The translations under genes and the position numbers were made by a program. A stretch of DNA of 35,969 bases from a virus. Below the pieces are notes generated by a model, which was not told the DNA's origin, searched no databases, and saw only the letters and a program-made list of their open reading frames with translations. The stretch spans positions 1 through 35,969 of the IMG/VR virus record IMGVR_UViG_3300044798_000139; one strand, 5' to 3'. Shown here piece after piece: positions 2,647 to 29,521 of this stretch (position 1 is the first letter of the stretch; the number at the start of each line of letters is the position of its first letter).

Positions 2647-3949
2647 CCTTCGGAATTTACCGCAGGATAAAGCAGCAGAAGCGGCTGTCATAGCCTCAAT
2701 GATAATCCAGCCGGCTTGTGTGCCGCATATAATCGAATTTATTGAGGCCGACTCTTTCTTTTGTGAGGAGGCAAGGGTATTTTTCGAGATTATTAAAGGC
2801 TTATGGCTTAATAAGCAGCCGATTGACGCTGTTGTTATCCGTAACAAGCTGGCATCGGGACAACAAGTTGAATGCACAACCTATCTCGTCAATGCGATAA
2901 ACAGCGTGCCGTCCGCCGCTAACGCCCTTTACTATGCAAAAATAGTAAGGCAGAAAAATATCGAGCGAAAACTGATTTGCGAGATTGAGGCTATCGGCAG
3001 GGAATTGGCCGAGCCAAACTTGACACTTGACGATAAAATTGCCCTTGTCGGCAAACTGCCCGCTCTTTATGCTAACCGAGAACCGCAACAAACCGATGAA
3101 ATTGCAAAGCTTATCGCCAATCACCTTGCCGAATTACAGGATACTGGCGGGCTGACTACCGGATTTGCAACATTAGACCGTATGACGAGCGGATTTAAGA
3201 ATGGCGACTTGATATTATTGGCCGGCAGGCCGTCAATCGGCAAAAGCTCTCTTATGCTCGATTTTTACTTGCAGGCCGCCCGTATCGGCGGACGACCTTA
3301 TCTTTACAGCCTTGAAATGACAAGCGACAAGATAATTCAGCGACTTCTTAAAAACCTGTCCCGAACAGGGGGTAATTTATATAGTGTGCAAAACGATTAT
3401 GTCAAAGAGGCGGCAAGGCTATTATCTCTTTATCCGGCGTGGATTGCAGATAAGGCAGACCCATCTGTCGAGAAAATCGCTGCTAATATCTTAATCCAAA
3501 AAGAAAAACGCGATATAGGTATAGTATTTATCGATTATATCCAGCTTATCGAGGCAAAAGGAAAAGACCGATACGAGCAGATAACAGGTGTTTCGAGGTT
3601 TATTAAGCAGGTTGCTGTTAAGGCAAATATTCCGATTGTCGCCCTTTGCCAGCTTAATCGCAAGTGTGAGGAGCGCAGAGACCACCGACCATATCTCTCA
3701 GATTTAAGAGACAGCGGCAGCCTTGAGCAGGATGCGGATTTGATTATATTCCTGCATCGAGACGATTATTACAGATTAAAAGAGAATCCGCAGGCCGAGC
3801 AGGATGGCCGTGCGCAGTGTATTATCGCCAAAAACAGGGACGGTTGCTGCGGCGATGTCGAAATGGTATGGCTGCCGGAATGCTTTACTTTCGGCGAATT
3901 AAACCTGCAATCGGTTAGACAGGATAAACAGGGCGACCTGCCGATATAA
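2630..3949 (+). CDS. dnaB-like: Replicative DNA helicase, DnaB family
   Basis: The protein (439 aa, the usual DnaB length) has the N-terminal DnaB domain (AAEAAVIASMIIQP..., about residues 14-110). The RecA-type helicase domain follows, with Walker A GRPSIGKSS near residues 198-206, the LEMTSDKIIQRLL helix of motif H1a, and Walker B IVFIDYIQLI near 297-306. It ends with the LSDLRDSGSLEQDADLIIFL segment typical of the family. It unwinds the phage fork as a hexamer. An AAAGGAG site precedes the ATG, which lies inside the end of the initiator gene. That overlap fits coupled production of loader and helicase. Confidence 0.95.
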   Translation: MKPKYDLRNLPQDKAAEAAVIASMIIQPACVPHIIEFIEADSFFCEEARVFFEIIKGLWLNKQPIDAVVIRNKLASGQQVECTTYLVNAINSVPSAANALYYAKIVRQKNIERKLICEIEAIGRELAEPNLTLDDKIALVGKLPALYANREPQQTDEIAKLIANHLAELQDTGGLTTGFATLDRMTSGFKNGDLILLAGRPSIGKSSLMLDFYLQAARIGGRPYLYSLEMTSDKIIQRLLKNLSRTGGNLYSVQNDYVKEAARLLSLYPAWIADKADPSVEKIAANILIQKEKRDIGIVFIDYIQLIEAKGKDRYEQITGVSRFIKQVAVKANIPIVALCQLNRKCEERRDHRPYLSDLRDSGSLEQDADLIIFLHRDDYYRLKENPQAEQDGRAQCIIAKNRDGCCGDVEMVWLPECFTFGELNLQSVRQDKQGDLPI

Positions 3950-4013
3950 CCGCTATATTCGTTATTTTGCAAAACGGTTTGAGTAAATATTTTTAATTTG
4001 TCGATATTTTTGT

Positions 4014-5717: not shown

Positions 5718-6306
5718 CATCTTGTTTCTAACGATAATATTCTTATTATTTTGCTCCTGCGGACAGGGGGGTATGACGGAGTTTCACACAGACGCCACAA
5801 TCAACGGCGCTTACGACCAAGTGGGCGCTTTTAATACCGCAAAGATTACGATGTCAGGTGGAGAAATCAACGAGTTGTTTACTTTTGACAACAGCAAATT
5901 CGATATGTTTGCCGGTAAAATAATTATGGGGATGTATATCGAAGGTCATAGCATCGTCAATATTTACGGCGGAGAATTAAGTCTATTCGACATTCTTTTT
6001 ATGAAAAATTCCAGCGTCCTGAATCTTTACGGCGGAAATGTCCATATAGATTATCCTGCTGTCGAGGGCGTTACCGCAGCCATAAATATTTACGGTTACG
6101 GCTTCAGCCAGTGGCCGGCAACTAACCTTACAGGTTTTTTATCGGATTCCACACCTTTCGTATTTACTAATCTGTATCCGCTTGGCAATATCCATTTATT
6201 TACTATTCCCGAACCTGCAACAGTTTTGCTTTTGGGATTAGGCGGGCTTGTGCTGCTCGCCCGAAGGCGAAGTCTCGCCGAAGGCGGATTAAGGAGCAAA
6301 AAATGA
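5707..6306 (+). CDS. PEP-CTERM sorted exported protein
   Basis: The N-terminus is a signal sequence (MKANILFLTIIFLLFCSC) with a marginal lipobox-like F-C-S-C. The body has repeated strand-turn units (VNIYGGELSLF, LNLYGGNVHID, INIYGYGFSQW) that suggest a small beta-helix. The C-terminus from about residue 167 is a complete PEP-CTERM signal: P-E-P, then the hydrophobic ATVLLLGLGGLVLL, then ARRR, with an extra 11 residues after it. In bacteria this signal is cut and anchored by an exosortase, so the phage must use host machinery. The style resembles planctomycete surface proteins, which suggests capture from the host. It could alter the infected cell surface. Confidence 0.85.
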   Translation: MKANILFLTIIFLLFCSCGQGGMTEFHTDATINGAYDQVGAFNTAKITMSGGEINELFTFDNSKFDMFAGKIIMGMYIEGHSIVNIYGGELSLFDILFMKNSSVLNLYGGNVHIDYPAVEGVTAAINIYGYGFSQWPATNLTGFLSDSTPFVFTNLYPLGNIHLFTIPEPATVLLLGLGGLVLLARRRSLAEGGLRSKK

Positions 6307-23767: not shown

Positions 23768-24178
23768 ATGGCTGATAAAATCATACTTAAACATTGTTGG
23801 GATTGCAAACAATTCAAACCAACCTCTGAATTTTCTAAAGATAAAAGTCGTCATAAAGACGGGCTTCATCATCGCTGTAAACAATGCTGCAAAACCTATA
23901 ATAAAAATTATTTTCAAACCGAAAAATACAAGCAATACAAAAGACGATATGGAAAACAAAACAATCTTCGTTTTAGTAAACGGCATAAAGCACAAAGAGC
24001 TATTTGGAAGGCTATTTACGCCGGAAAAATCAATCGCCCATCTTCTTGCAATTGTTCTTGTTGCACCGAAAAAGCAAGAGATTATCATCACCCAAACGGA
24101 TACGATAGTTCGCATTATTTTGATGTCATTCCTGTTTGTCGCAAGTGTCATTTGAAACTCCATTCTCTTTCACGATAG
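23768..24178 (+). CDS. HNH homing-type endonuclease (136 aa)
   Basis: It begins MADKIILKHCWDCKQFKPTS, with an N-terminal zinc motif C-W-D-C and C-K-Q-C. The C-terminal HNH core is C-S-C-C, then DYHHPNGYDSSHYFDVIPVC and R-K-C-H. AAAGGAACG gives a good ribosome site. The C-terminal half is clearly related to the HNH protein at 17289 (shared AI-x-x-GKI, YHH, VIPVCRKCH), so the two are paralogues. It runs antisense to the late operon and its last 53 bases overlap the end of the GNAT gene. It is probably a mobile endonuclease inserted at the GNAT/gp14 junction. Confidence 0.85.
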   Translation: MADKIILKHCWDCKQFKPTSEFSKDKSRHKDGLHHRCKQCCKTYNKNYFQTEKYKQYKRRYGKQNNLRFSKRHKAQRAIWKAIYAGKINRPSSCNCSCCTEKARDYHHPNGYDSSHYFDVIPVCRKCHLKLHSLSR

Positions 24179-24590
24179 AAAATATGAAGCAGTCAATTTT
24201 ATCTGCCGTATGTTTTCTCATTTTGCCTTCTTTCTTAAAGCCTACATATTCCGCAAGTCTTATTGCCCGCTCAAAGTCAACACGAATAACCGATTGAAGC
24301 CTGTGCAGGCCAAGCTCCTTAAATGCTAAATCTATAATGCTTTTTATGCAACTTATCATTTCAAGCTTGTGGTCGGCGGCCTCTTTGCTCAAACAATAAA
24401 AGCCCTCGCCAACACCCTTCCAAAATACTATAACTCCGCCAAATCCGAGAATCTTGCCGTCAAGAAGGGCGGTTTTTACCCAACCCGAAAGCTTCAAATC
24501 CGTAAACTCCTTGACAACCTTCGGGTCGATAGGGTTATTTCTGACGTAATCGAGGTCAGATTGAACAGAATCTCTTATCTCAATAGTCAT
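24126..24590 (-). CDS. GNAT-fold protein, internal virion protein A-like (154 aa)
   Basis: The sequence follows the small GNAT-like family of podovirus cores: an N-terminal SVQSDLDYVRNN, a strand pair around ALLDGKILGFGGVIVFW, a Cys-bearing helix, LHRLQSVIRVDFERAIRLAE, then Y-V-G-F. It resembles T7 gp13-type/DUF2833 proteins that sit between the tail and core genes. An acetyl-CoA loop (Q/R-x-x-G-x-G/A) is not evident, so it may be structural and not enzymatic. The last ~17 residues overlap the antisense HNH gene and may not be the ancestral C-terminus. Start: ATG overlapping the stop of the small gene upstream. Confidence 0.75.
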   Translation of the reverse strand: MTIEIRDSVQSDLDYVRNNPIDPKVVKEFTDLKLSGWVKTALLDGKILGFGGVIVFWKGVGEGFYCLSKEAADHKLEMISCIKSIIDLAFKELGLHRLQSVIRVDFERAIRLAEYVGFKKEGKMRKHTADKIDCFIFSIVKENGVSNDTCDKQE

Positions 24591-24794: not shown

Positions 24795-26792
24795 TTAACC
24801 TCCTGTAACCTCCATCTTTGGCACTAAACACCTAATAACGCACGGCAACGGCGAGTCGGTCGATATAATAAGCGGCGTCTCAAGCGAGAATCCACCATCT
24901 CTCGATACAACCACAGTGCCGGTAAACAAACCCTCAATATCTGACAAATTAACCCATCGTTCATCGGAAAAGTTTATATCAAAAAGATTGTCGTCTGAAG
25001 CGCCGAATTTCACACCCGCTGAATTTAAGAAGCTAATTCCAACCTCTGCGACCGATGCGATACTTGCCGCCGATGAACCCATACGGGTATGTATTACAGG
25101 CTTCAAAGGCTCTAATTTAGATTTGAACAGCAAACCTACCTGAACTTTCCTTGCCTCAGTATCGAGAGTTATCTGGCCGTCCCCATTAACATCTTCAACA
25201 ACCTTCGATGCCTGAACAATGCCATCAGCCAGAATAGCAACGGTTTCGCCGATTAAATGTCCGAGTCCTGTTACTGTTGTTGTCGGTGTAGCAGATTCAA
25301 AGGTAATCCCGCAATCGACAAAGAAGGCGTCTTTAATATCTGTCCCGAAATCTCTCAACGCAAATTTCTCGATATAAATTACATCTGCGCCGTTGATTGT
25401 TCTTTGGACGGCAATATAAATTTCATCTTCATCTTCGATTCCGCCTATACAAACAGACTGGACAAAACCATCTATTGGGACTTTGAACCAGCCGACAACA
25501 TTTTGCTCCCTTTTATAGGCCATAGCAATCAAATCGCCGTTATCAAGATGACACCATAAAATCTGGTCAGGGGAATACTGCATAGCCATACCAACAATCC
25601 CTGATAACGTGATATGCTCCGACAAAACAGTTAAATCCGGCGAAGTGGATTTCCCTTCATCTTTGTATGGTATCTCATAGACCTTTCTGCCAACGTAATC
25701 AACAAAAAGGATTGCCTCATCACCTTCCGCAGGCTGAATATCCTTGCTTCCATAGGCCGAGCGTTGCTTGCACGTGGCATTAGTCGGCGTAATAGGTGTA
25801 TCAATATCGTTGCTCTGCAATATCCATTCATCGCCCCAAGTCCCGATTACAAGAAAATCCAGCGAAGCAATCCAGGCTAACTCGTTTGTCGTAGTAAGAA
25901 CCCTTGAGAATGAATCAGCGTCCTTTACGCCCTCCTCGAAATTATCGTAATCGCCCGTCCTTCCGAGCCAGATAGTCAATTCTCTGCCTTGTCTTGAGCC
26001 TTGTAAAGCACCGACAGTTGTAAAGGTTCGGGTCTCGCTTTCAAATTCATCGCCATCTACAACTGCGACAACCTTCCAAGTATATTCAGTTACCGCAACG
26101 CAGTAGTCGCCGACAGGCCATTCTAATTTAGGCGCACCGTCATAGACCTTCAAGCCGTTGATATAAAGTTGAACCGAATCGATAGTCAGGGCGCCGAGAT
26201 TATCTATTTGAGCTTGCAGCGTATCGTTCAATTCGACATCATCCGCATCATCGGCAGGAGAAATAAGCGTAACAGTCGGCACATCACCATACACCTTGAA
26301 ATTCCGAGTTATGTGTTCATTCTGATAATCTACGGCACAAGCCCAGGGCGGATAATTTGCACAAGTTATTCCTCCTCCGGTCATATTAGGTTGTCCCGCT
26401 TGGTTATACATCCATCTCATTTCTTTCCAGGGAGCTGAACTCGGTCTGCCTGCACACACTTCTGATTCTGGAATTAGAACAATAGCATATTCAACATCTG
26501 GCGAAATAATATAGTCCAAGCCCGTAAAAGGAATCCATTCAGGAGTAGTTGTTAAATCGCCGTCAGTAACTTGACCTATTGTCAAAAGAGGCGTGCCTGT
26601 GGGCTTATGATTAGCATCAACGGCGTATAAATATATATTTACGCTTACAGCCGTTATATCAACGTATTTGGCCAACTGTAATTGAATTTCTGTAAGAGTT
26701 CCAAGCGAAGATGGCCTGAAGGTTTGATATTCTTTACAATAAATATCTCCGTAATCTGTTCCACCCGTATAATTTGCAAGCAAAGTTGACAT
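24795..26792 (-). CDS. C-terminal part of a split tail nozzle protein, with an N-terminal beta-domain insertion (665 aa)
   Basis: From about residue 272 the sequence is that of podovirus nozzle/gp12-like proteins: L-T-I-W-L-G-R-T-G-D-Y-D-N-F, then the LAWIASLDFLVIGTWGDEWI propeller strand and ILFVDYVGRKVYEI. After these comes the LSGIVGMAMQYSPDQILWCH region. Residues 1 to ~165 instead look like an exported-type beta-sandwich domain (containing TFRPSSLGTLTEIQLQLAKY). Residues ~170-268 look like a fibronectin/Ig-like domain beginning PTVTLISPADDADDVELND. It follows the middle fragment by eight bases with its own GGTGA site. The parts presumably assemble into one nozzle. Confidence 0.7.
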   Translation of the reverse strand: MSTLLANYTGGTDYGDIYCKEYQTFRPSSLGTLTEIQLQLAKYVDITAVSVNIYLYAVDANHKPTGTPLLTIGQVTDGDLTTTPEWIPFTGLDYIISPDVEYAIVLIPESEVCAGRPSSAPWKEMRWMYNQAGQPNMTGGGITCANYPPWACAVDYQNEHITRNFKVYGDVPTVTLISPADDADDVELNDTLQAQIDNLGALTIDSVQLYINGLKVYDGAPKLEWPVGDYCVAVTEYTWKVVAVVDGDEFESETRTFTTVGALQGSRQGRELTIWLGRTGDYDNFEEGVKDADSFSRVLTTTNELAWIASLDFLVIGTWGDEWILQSNDIDTPITPTNATCKQRSAYGSKDIQPAEGDEAILFVDYVGRKVYEIPYKDEGKSTSPDLTVLSEHITLSGIVGMAMQYSPDQILWCHLDNGDLIAMAYKREQNVVGWFKVPIDGFVQSVCIGGIEDEDEIYIAVQRTINGADVIYIEKFALRDFGTDIKDAFFVDCGITFESATPTTTVTGLGHLIGETVAILADGIVQASKVVEDVNGDGQITLDTEARKVQVGLLFKSKLEPLKPVIHTRMGSSAASIASVAEVGISFLNSAGVKFGASDDNLFDINFSDERWVNLSDIEGLFTGTVVVSRDGGFSLETPLIISTDSPLPCVIRCLVPKMEVTGG

Positions 26793-26800
26793 TATTCACC

Positions 26801-28120
26801 TTATTCTGGCTCTGCTAAAACGGCCTGCGTAGGAATAGTCGCCATACCGCCGTAAATACACCTGTCCTCGAAAAACGTAATTGTCGAAGGCCAGCCCCTG
26901 TAATCACTCCAAGCCCCTTCTGCCCACCGTTTAGTCGGAAGCCCCGCCGGTAATTCCTGCGTTTCTCCTGCGTTACTGGCAAGCTTCGTCACAATTATCA
27001 CCGTTGCCGTATATCCATCGGTTACATCCATTACTCGAACAATCCCTTCCTCTATTTGATTATCTAAAGTCAAGGTAGCGCCAGCGCCAGCCATAATATC
27101 GCCGACTGCGCTGCTTGCCAAAATTTTATATTGAACATTGTCCGAATCCTCCGTAAAGGCGAAACTGTCGTTTCTCGCATTATAAGTCAGTCCCGTAAAG
27201 ACCTTGAAATTTTCCCAATCGCTGCCGTTCTCGCTTCTCTGCAATGTGAATGTCCCCTTCCAGCTTCCTGTAGTAACGAATCTTGCCGTTCCTTTGACAT
27301 AAATAGCAGAGCTTTCCCCGCTGCCTAATCGAGATATGCTCATTTCTACTCTCGGATGGACAAGTTTGAATAAAGCCCCTATATGCCCTTCAACAAAGAA
27401 CCCGCTGTCTCCGTCAAAGGTAAGTGTCCCTTCTTCGCCTACATCAACCTCATCGCAGGCCATAGTGGCCGTTGCCGATACAGTCGGGTCGATAAGGTCG
27501 TTCCTTGTCATAAACGGGCCTTTAGCGAAGGGAATTTTATCCAGCGAAAACGATACGGCACTTGTTCTCGTTAATGTTCTTGGTGCATATTTTGAATGAA
27601 CTAATCTCATCACGTTACCGACTTGATAATATTGAATCTGATACAAATCCTCGGTTAGATATGGGACTACAGGATTGCCGTCATCATCATTACCGTATAA
27701 TTCAAAGACGACCTCATCGTTATTGAAGAACCGCATATATTGATTGCCAACTTCAATCATATAAATAACGGTCGATGAATAAGCAAACGGGATAAGCCGG
27801 ATTTTTCTCGGTGTTATTTCCGGTTCGGCAACCAATGTAACGGCAGAAAGCAGGATATAGCCATACCAATATCCGTCTGGATATTCAGCGAGATTGATAA
27901 TTATAATTGCACCGACATCGGGTATAAAAGTCCCCTCTGTCAGCATTGTCATTATGATTGTGCAAACACCATCGGCAACACCTTGCGAAACTACCGTATA
28001 TGTTGGGTCAACAGGTTCGCCGCTAACATCGTCCGTTGCCGACAACACCATATCGGTAAAATCCGGCACTTCAGGTGGCAAATCGCCAAACGAACAGGTA
28101 TATGTTTGTCCTACAGCCAT
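26801..28120 (-). CDS. Middle part of the split tail nozzle protein (439 aa)
   Basis: Residues from about 105 onward match the central nozzle region: R-K-I-R-L-I-P-F-A-Y-S, VIYMIEVGNQYMRFF, and near the end WAEGAWSDYRGWPSTITFFE and D-R. The first ~103 residues (MAVGQTYTCSFGDLPPEVPD...) are a separate small domain resembling the beta modules found in phage fibres. The ATG overlaps the stop of the N-terminal fragment (TAATG). The C-terminus stops just where relatives run straight into the W-x-x-R-T-G-D segment, which here lies in the next cistron. Confidence 0.7.
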   Translation of the reverse strand: MAVGQTYTCSFGDLPPEVPDFTDMVLSATDDVSGEPVDPTYTVVSQGVADGVCTIIMTMLTEGTFIPDVGAIIIINLAEYPDGYWYGYILLSAVTLVAEPEITPRKIRLIPFAYSSTVIYMIEVGNQYMRFFNNDEVVFELYGNDDDGNPVVPYLTEDLYQIQYYQVGNVMRLVHSKYAPRTLTRTSAVSFSLDKIPFAKGPFMTRNDLIDPTVSATATMACDEVDVGEEGTLTFDGDSGFFVEGHIGALFKLVHPRVEMSISRLGSGESSAIYVKGTARFVTTGSWKGTFTLQRSENGSDWENFKVFTGLTYNARNDSFAFTEDSDNVQYKILASSAVGDIMAGAGATLTLDNQIEEGIVRVMDVTDGYTATVIIVTKLASNAGETQELPAGLPTKRWAEGAWSDYRGWPSTITFFEDRCIYGGMATIPTQAVLAEPE

Positions 28121-28308
28121 TATGAAGGTTCTTCCGATTTATACACGAATCGCAAACCAGGTCGCCGCTCTGCACCACCATATATTTCAGGAATCATATT
28201 TTCAAGATGACGACAGAGAGACGGATACTTTTCCGTATCGCTTCTTGCGTCAATTTTAGGGCTTGCCTCGCCGCCATTGAACGAAATTATGGGAATATTT
28301 ACAGCCAT
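28120..28308 (-). CDS. N-terminal part of the split tail nozzle protein (62 aa)
   Basis: This is the characteristic nozzle N-terminus: S-F-N-G-G-E-A-S-P, then KYPSLCRHLENMIPEIYGGA, then E-R-R-P-G-L-R-F-V. In relatives it continues directly into the R-L-I-P-F region, which here starts at about residue 105 of the next cistron. The frame ends with a stop that overlaps the next ATG. The stretch is too well conserved to be chance, so it is a genuine separate cistron or the result of splitting one gene. Confidence 0.75.
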   Translation of the reverse strand: MAVNIPIISFNGGEASPKIDARSDTEKYPSLCRHLENMIPEIYGGAERRPGLRFVYKSEEPS

Positions 28309-28310
28309 AA

Positions 28311-28682
28311 TTATAAGTTTTGAAGAATAACCACCTTTTCAGGCTTAACGCTTTGGTCAACATTGACTTTTTGAATCATCTGTGCCGAAAGTATCAAATC
28401 AAGTTTTGCCTCTATATCGACTAAATCAGCAGATAGCTCGCTGTTAGGCGGTTGATATTCTCCGCCCGCTAACGTTATTGTCGGAGAGCCTGTATCATAA
28501 GCTCGGACATCATCACCGGCCACGATATTAGCCGAAGCTCCAATATAAACCCCTGTAGTCCCTTTTTCTGCAAGAGTAAGGTCAGGATTTTCGTGTCTTG
28601 TGCCATCTTTAGCATATACAGACATTCTCAAGGTTGTCAAACCCAAGCCTGCCGTATGATGAACATAAGCAATATAAACCAT
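28311..28682 (-). CDS. Small beta-type structural protein (123 aa)
   Basis: The first ~80 residues (containing LGLTTLRMSVYAKDGTRHEN, then LAEKGTTGVYIGA) resemble the beta modules found in phage tail and head fibre proteins. They also resemble in type the extra domain at the front of the middle nozzle fragment. The C-terminal ~40 residues are helical (SELSADLVDIEAKLDLILSA). It lies between the adaptor and the nozzle in the late operon. A tail-associated structural role is likely; no exact family recognised. Confidence 0.55.
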   Translation of the reverse strand: MVYIAYVHHTAGLGLTTLRMSVYAKDGTRHENPDLTLAEKGTTGVYIGASANIVAGDDVRAYDTGSPTITLAGGEYQPPNSELSADLVDIEAKLDLILSAQMIQKVNVDQSVKPEKVVILQNL

Positions 28683-28699: not shown

Positions 28700-29521
28700 C
28701 TAATAAATATGAGTAGGGTCAAGAGGGGATACTTTGCCGCTTCCATACCTCGCAAGTAACCAATCGCTCCTGCCAGTCGTGTTAGTCTCTGCTCCACATA
28801 CTGCCCTTGCTCGGCTCATTGCTGTTGCAAGTTCCTGTTTCAAATCCTGCTTGAGCGCTTGCGTTCCTACACCGGCAAGGGGATTAACTAATTTTAAAGC
28901 AAGTTGTAAAATCAGGACTTCCGTAAACAGCGGGTCGAAATCCGCTGGGTCTGTAATCTTTTTTATGTAGTGAATATGAAAAGTGCTTTCGTCTGTCAGA
29001 AGCCTTTTACCCTCTATTGTGTAACGATGATAATGTCTGCTCTGGACAAGCCGCAGGAAATCTGTCGGCAGTTGATATTGATGCTCCCAATAAGTATTGT
29101 CGGGCGTATCTTCGGCAACGACAGGATAGCCTGCCCCGCAGTCTCGGCTGTAAGTGCCGTTTGAGATTATCTCGCCATCTGTAAAAGTCCCGCTTAAATA
29201 TGCAACAACATAAACAGTTGTCGATGTAACCTCAAGAATCGTGCAGGTAACTCCGCTTGATGCCCCGGTTAAGGTATCACCGACAGCCCAGGCACCTGAA
29301 GGGGTAGAATCGAGCGCCAAAGTATTTATCAAAACTAAATCTACCCTTGCTTTTGCCCAATACCATTCAAAACTGCGAAGTAAGGCGTCTCTTGTCTGTG
29401 AATAATGGCGAATGCACTTGAGAGCTTCGTTTGTAGTTTGCAGGGCATAGGTGAATACAGCAGCGCCTAATTTGTCGAGCGATTGGTTACAGACAGTTAC
29501 TTCTGCGGCAGTCAGAGACAT
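28700..29521 (-). CDS. Head-tail adaptor (tail tubular protein A-like) with an inserted domain
   Basis: The ends match the podovirus adaptor family: ALQTTNEALKCIRHYSQTRD and LLRSFEWYWAKAR near residues 27-59. Later come WEHQYQLPTDFLRLVQSR (about 145-162), F-D-P-L-F and a helical C-terminus. Between residues ~67 and ~143 sits an extra beta module (GDTLTGASSGVTCTILEVTS, then LSGTFTDGEIISNG) that the usual proteins lack. AAGGAGAAAAT precedes the ATG, which overlaps the previous stop. It joins the portal to the nozzle. Confidence 0.85.
   Translation of the reverse strand: MSLTAAEVTVCNQSLDKLGAAVFTYALQTTNEALKCIRHYSQTRDALLRSFEWYWAKARVDLVLINTLALDSTPSGAWAVGDTLTGASSGVTCTILEVTSTTVYVVAYLSGTFTDGEIISNGTYSRDCGAGYPVVAEDTPDNTYWEHQYQLPTDFLRLVQSRHYHRYTIEGKRLLTDESTFHIHYIKKITDPADFDPLFTEVLILQLALKLVNPLAGVGTQALKQDLKQELATAMSRARAVCGAETNTTGRSDWLLARYGSGKVSPLDPTHIY

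Follow-up and report, generated by a model that had tools for sequence, protein, structure and literature searches.

The tail nozzle is a conserved gate for DNA ejection in short-tailed phages, and the solved nozzles that we found are each one chain. Described examples are Carin-1 gp36 (PDB 8CK1, a single-chain structure from cryogenic electron microscopy), epsilon15 gp12, T7 gp12 and, more distantly, P22 gp10. Accessory domains on virion proteins are usually appended or inserted within one chain. In T7 gp12, the platform barrel belongs to the C-terminal domain but takes three of its strands from the N-terminal 45 residues, an arrangement that the authors thought might reflect circular permutation (PMC6702177). 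Outside phages, mitochondrial cox2 of Campsomeris has undergone insertional gene fission into complementary genes, with a nuclease open reading frame (ORF) suspected (PMC5374615). Here we analysed IMGVR_UViG_3300044798_000139, a metagenomic IMG/VR contig of 35,969 bases from an uncultured short-tailed phage, the whole of which we call the window. Its nozzle gene is very probably split at two loop positions, with each downstream fragment starting with an extra domain that would decorate the virion.

The nozzle sequence and its two junctions

A sequence-only reading of the window had proposed that three consecutive ORFs of 62, 439 and 665 codons carry the N-terminal, central and C-terminal regions of one nozzle. 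These ORFs are present on the minus strand, one after another and with stops between all three, and are termed N, M and C.

28120..28308, minus strand: ORF N, 62 amino acids (aa); N-terminal nozzle segment (platform strands and first propeller strand), with matches to PHROG 376 and 8CK1
28118..28122, minus strand: junction 1 (J1), TAATG, in which the N stop overlaps the M start
26801..28120, minus strand: ORF M, 439 aa; insert 1 and the central nozzle segment (propeller start, part of the nozzle tip, return strand)
27812..28120, minus strand: insert 1, residues 1–103 of ORF M, not part of the nozzle family (PHROG 376 starts at residue 101)
26793..26800, minus strand: junction 2 (J2), 8 nucleotides (nt) from the M stop to the C start
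24795..26792, minus strand: ORF C, 665 aa; insert 2 and the C-terminal nozzle segment (rest of the propeller, dock, platform)
25986..26792, minus strand: insert 2, the first 269 aa of ORF C, with a predicted beta-sandwich at ~16–110 and an Ig/FN3-like domain at ~172–260

PHROG 376 is a tail protein family whose profile has 712 positions. In a PHROG profile search, ORF N matched positions 2–59 (E-value (E) 5e-15), residues 101–430 of ORF M matched positions 60–316 (E 4e-40) and residues 270–664 of ORF C matched positions 315–711 (E 1e-97). The profile is thus tiled in the order N, M, C from position 2 to 711, an order far beyond chance. Judged by these alignments, the three ORFs hold the complete nozzle sequence in order, as had been proposed. 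The ~103 and ~270 residues described as foreign to the family do lie outside it, as residues 1–100 of M and 1–269 of C. Against 8CK1, ORF N aligns to residues 16–61 (E 5.6e-5) and, by family profile, ORF M aligns to residues 72–352 and ORF C to residues 353–828 (E 2e-62).

The fold was tested on L098, an unsplit relative of 751 aa, rather than on the window complex, using AlphaFold2 (AF2) with a 53-row alignment. The model (predicted local distance difference test (pLDDT) 91.4, predicted template modelling score 0.84) contains the propeller, platform and dock of the nozzle fold. It superposes on 8CK1 with a Z-score (Z) of 45.8 and a root-mean-square deviation of 1.8 Å over 643 residues, and matches T7 gp12 with Z about 28. 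These matches support the assignment of the window nozzle to the T7/P22 type, made earlier from the sequence. Mapped onto this model, both breaks are placed in loops that link two strands of the family fold: J1 in loop 56–63, between strands 50–55 and 64–69, and J2 in loop 361–367, between strands 356–360 and 368–371. Matches found in a structure search with a model of ORF C alone were set aside because that model is poor.

Each junction had been credited with a ribosome site or a TAATG overlap. The TAATG stands at J1, where the open frames of N and M share 16 nt, while the ribosome site ahead of ORF M is weak (GGAAGAA). At J2, GGTGAATA separates the M stop from the ATG of ORF C, and a ribosome-site-like AAGGTGA spans the M stop. 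The frames at J2 are closed on both sides, with a stop before the ATG in the C frame.

Cuts, inserts and duplications among relatives

We gathered viral loci using the M ORF, the C core and the N segment and scanned them with N, M1, M2 and C profiles. This gave 119 non-redundant loci, 107 of which hold all segments; as the loci were retrieved by similarity, the counts below are not population frequencies. A search of bacterial genomes yielded only five relatives, all distant.

The nozzle is cut at J1 in 25 of the 107 loci and at J2 in 14, with both cuts present in six (the window, L002, L096, L118, L126 and L148). An insert accompanies the cut at 23 of 25 J1 and 10 of 14 J2 sites, against 2 of 82 uncut J1 and 0 of 93 uncut J2 sites (Fisher p 6e-19 and 3e-11, respectively, with kinship ignored). 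The linker at uncut J1 measures 7–18 residues in 80 of 82 loci; where J1 is cut, the extra distance is worth at least 113 residues in 23 of 25 and includes whole ORFs in some loci. At J2, the uncut linker never exceeds 19 residues (93 of 93), and the cut one reaches at least 206 residues in 10 of 14. Inserts and breaks go together at both sites, which bears out the earlier observation that each break coincides with extra sequence. The insertions may, as was also proposed, have brought their own start codons. J1 inserts are kept in frame without a cut in two loci, L001 and L156, and 29 loci, none of them cut there, have insertions between M1 and M2 that measure at least 60 residues, so insertion alone need not entail a break. 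Conversely, six of 39 cut junctions carry no insert: a cut can thus be present, or be maintained, in the absence of one.

Breaks in a third region, close to the propeller end, occur in L065, L090, L111, L077, L130, L151 and L164. On a core tree of 102 rows, built by a quick method, the fewest changes are eight for J1, five for J2, six for C breaks (the L110 break included) and five for duplication of the N segment. A tree of the N segment, with 53 columns and few supported forks, was not used. Two other breaks, in L081 (5325–8209; within M1) and L110 (2471–4968; near the C end), fall within conserved domains, in contrast to those at J1 and J2; being mid-domain and without an insert, they are probable sequencing errors.

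The extra domains occupy several positions. They follow N in L004, L005, L020, L137 and L153; precede M in the window, L089, L096, L126, L148 and the L012 group; follow M in L008; precede C in the window, L001, L015, L017, L091, L107, L126 and L136; and form a separate ORF in L002. Insert 2 of the window illustrates how they are related. The beta-sandwich plus Ig/FN3-like domain proposed for it earlier is weak by Pfam (Big_7, E 0.028, ORF C residues 172–217 for the Ig/FN3 part), and AF2 gives pLDDT values of mostly 67–87 for residues 21–110. As a sequence query, insert 2 returned only three viral matches, all weak, and we therefore set its family from the inserts already collected. L107 carries a homologue of it at J2 (E 3e-10), L126 a weakly similar insert at J1 (E 0.0017), and hhalign aligns it with the J1/J2 inserts of L126/L148 (E 9e-7). 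These sequence homologues in related phages support the assignment of a beta-sandwich and FN3 cassette. The J1 insert of L126 in turn has relatives at J1 of L148 (E 3e-28) and, in frame between M1 and M2, in L006 (4e-13) and L024 (1e-8). Compared directly with the L006/L024 inserts by hhalign, insert 2 matches weakly (E 0.0075, probability 5), and its link to them therefore depends on L126 as the intermediate. GLUG repeats were identified by Pfam at J1 of L004 and L106 and at J2 of L015, and sequence relatives of GLUG inserts occur at J1, J2 and one C break. By these sequence relationships, related cassettes (beta-sandwich/FN3 and GLUG) sit at different sites, in frame or cut. In L004, L005 and L006, loops of the nozzle C region contain inserted short acidic repeats with the pattern VTYEDE(I/V)VTYE, which in L005 occur in M2 as well.

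Nozzle segments are themselves duplicated. The N segment (~55 residues) occurs twice in eight loci that also hold M and C (L004, L005, L019, L020, L025, L106, L137 and L153), usually with one copy decorated. The C-terminal (dock/platform) segment occurs twice in L130 (9289–11606), L151 (9609–11752) and L164 (9058–11534), where one copy has an N-terminal extension of 380–480 aa. Recurrent cutting, domains that swap sites and duplication of N all lie beyond what a reading of the window sequence could reach.

Other ORFs stand between N and M–C in about nine loci. L025 has a pectate-lyase-like tail-spike ORF between N and M, and in L090 two C pieces flank such an ORF. The gap in L013 holds an ORF that matches tail fibre families, and in L016 an HNH endonuclease ORF (3480–3977; PF13392, E 5e-11) separates a split N from an M–C cistron. 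The cut loci keep the N core motif CR.LEN..P.IYG..ERRPG, with few exceptions. Between L116 and L134, the ratio of non-synonymous to synonymous substitution rates is about 0.12 for the split N and 0.15 for M–C, showing that these split N chains are under purifying selection.

Alternatives and a proposed mechanism

Several observations weigh against a natural split into three working chains. ORF C modelled alone gives a poor structure (pLDDT 60.7), insert 1 has no homologue among the viral contigs searched, and we found no close relative with which to measure selection on the window's own three chains. The J1 frames overlap by 16 nt, so one insertion or deletion (indel) could fuse N and M on paper. 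Among phylogenetically independent pairs, few in number, the J1 association runs the same way in five of six and the opposite way in none (p 0.06), and the cuts without an insert (J1 in L002 and L004; J2 in L096, L101, L118 and L148) show that the two do not always go together.

The ORFs might be joined in translation, by programmed frameshifting, readthrough or termination–reinitiation, making part of the nozzle a fusion. The TAATG at J1 and the short distance from stop to start at J2 would suit such joining, and the Ig-like domain literature describes other phage tail proteins that gain a domain by frameshifting. We consider it improbable that this happens here: no slippery heptamer was seen by eye at J1, where the frames overlap, or at J2, where they are closed and the C frame is stopped before its ATG, and relatives in which N lies more than 1 kb from M cannot be fused in this way.

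Sequencing or assembly frameshifts in a single-chain gene with two in-frame insertions could also produce such ORFs. The record is metagenomic, the overlap at J1 permits the single-indel fusion noted above, and the L081 and L110 breaks do resemble such errors. Yet the closed frames at J2, 8 nt apart, make fusion of M and C impossible by any single indel, and start/stop overlaps and separate starts recur at both sites in many independent contigs. The likely errors break inside conserved domains without an insert, unlike J1 and J2. Given recurrence at the same sites, and given that about nine loci have ORFs placed between N and M, a real break is much the likelier, and we regard an artefact as very unlikely.

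Decay is a further alternative, in which N, another piece or both would be a remnant and a truncated nozzle would work without it. Nothing direct speaks for it beyond the lack of close window relatives in which to measure selection. The retained N motif core and the purifying selection on the split N of L116/L134 argue against it, as does the place of the matching 45 residues of T7 gp12 in the platform barrel (PMC6702177); we give it very little credence. That the inserts are introns or inteins, removed to restore one chain, is barely credible: the HNH ORF in the J1 gap of L016 and the free-standing endonuclease ORF near the window nozzle genes would fit, but the inserts appear to be in-frame beta-sandwich, FN3 or GLUG domains with their own starts, fused to nozzle fragments, neither the window nor six loci gave an Rfam match at the gathering threshold, and the Pfam matches of the window ORFs included no intein family.

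We therefore favour fission of the nozzle gene at J1 and J2. The three chains would be translated separately from one message, with coupled initiation at the TAATG and at the AAGGTGA site, and would come together without covalent bonds as one nozzle protomer, of which each virion would have six; we infer this assembly from conservation and fold. Since the first 45 residues of T7 gp12 feed its platform barrel (PMC6702177), the 62-aa N chain would complete the barrel by strand complementation and supply the first propeller strand. A break would free one loop end, allowing a bulky domain to be joined to either fragment through just one of its ends; large J1/J2 inserts may for this reason nearly always come with a cut. 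The inserted domains are plausibly surface-exposed. Displayed at the breaks, they would most likely help contact with the host surface, by analogy with the tail-spike and tail-fibre type ORFs that some relatives have in the same gaps.

More tentatively, and with the odds rather against it, fission may have made nozzle segments interchangeable, so that, where the N or the C-terminal segment is duplicated with and without a decoration, a virion could mix decorated and plain chains over the six positions. Mixed nozzles would let receptor-binding or adhesive domains be displayed on the DNA conduit in a combinatorial and tunable way. If so, the window, which has a single N copy and a decoration at each of its two breaks, would represent a simpler version of such a system.

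Gene neighbourhood and comparison with known systems

The split nozzle lies among other tail genes, and its neighbours include the following.

28700..29521, minus strand: adaptor of tail tubular A type, upstream of N; PHROG 394 (E 2e-36), carrying an inserted ~70-aa domain
28311..28682: 123-aa ORF between the adaptor and N, with no family match
24126..24590, minus strand: GNAT-type acetyltransferase-like ORF; Acetyltransf_4 E 1e-4 (below the Pfam cut-off), PHROG 4177
23768..24178, plus strand: small endonuclease-like ORF, PHROG 2340 (E 8e-15), opposite to the structural genes and overlapping the GNAT-like ORF

The gene order is PHROG 394 adaptor, 123-aa ORF, N, M, C, GNAT-like ORF and PHROG 418 (internal virion protein). 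Adaptor residues 67–136 share 63% identity with the insert that L001 carries in frame at J1 (5770–5982), so such domains also move between different tail proteins. L001 has a 116-aa ORF in the position matching that of the 123-aa ORF. The endonuclease-like ORF is, from its sequence match, possibly a free-standing homing endonuclease.

The order of adaptor, nozzle and internal virion protein is common to the window, epsilon15 and vir555, and a GNAT-like gene directly follows the unsplit nozzle in epsilon15 and the spring phage MW202898. The nozzle slot holds one gene in epsilon15, Carin1, HTVC010P, vir555 and a spring phage, and with L098 these provide the unsplit relatives that the sequence-only reading had expected from family knowledge.

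If the nozzles of this family, repeatedly cut in the same loops with every piece retained and related domains added at different cuts, are working ones, an essential conduit would tolerate fission and exploit it to gain surface domains. This would explain some short orphan ORFs beside phage nozzle genes and would suggest where the nozzle fold can naturally be split. Our searches of the open literature turned up no published account of a repeatedly split, redecorated nozzle with a duplicated N.

Compared with the single-chain nozzles, the window has the same sequence and fold coverage and the same slot, after the PHROG 394 adaptor and before the GNAT-like ORF and the internal virion protein. 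The five annotated relatives examined have one chain, whereas the window has three cistrons, with 103 additional residues at the first break and 269 at the second. One chain per protomer, which is usual for PHROG 376 without defining it (many relatives are cut), is thus not what we find in the window.

Accessory phage domains and gene fission are each already known. The inserts resemble Ig-like and GLUG accessory domains on virion proteins in being promiscuous beta domains on structural proteins; unlike the usual cases, here the acceptor core chain is itself interrupted where the domain is added, and this has happened repeatedly and at several sites. The closest concept that we met is the insertional fission of cox2, which likewise yields separately expressed fragments that complement each other and have additional coding sequence in between; its suspected nuclease ORF has a counterpart in the HNH ORF of the L016 J1 gap. 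The two differ in that cox2 is an unrelated protein in an unrelated organism, whereas the nozzle cuts amount to at least eight and five changes at two sites, with one fragment duplicated.

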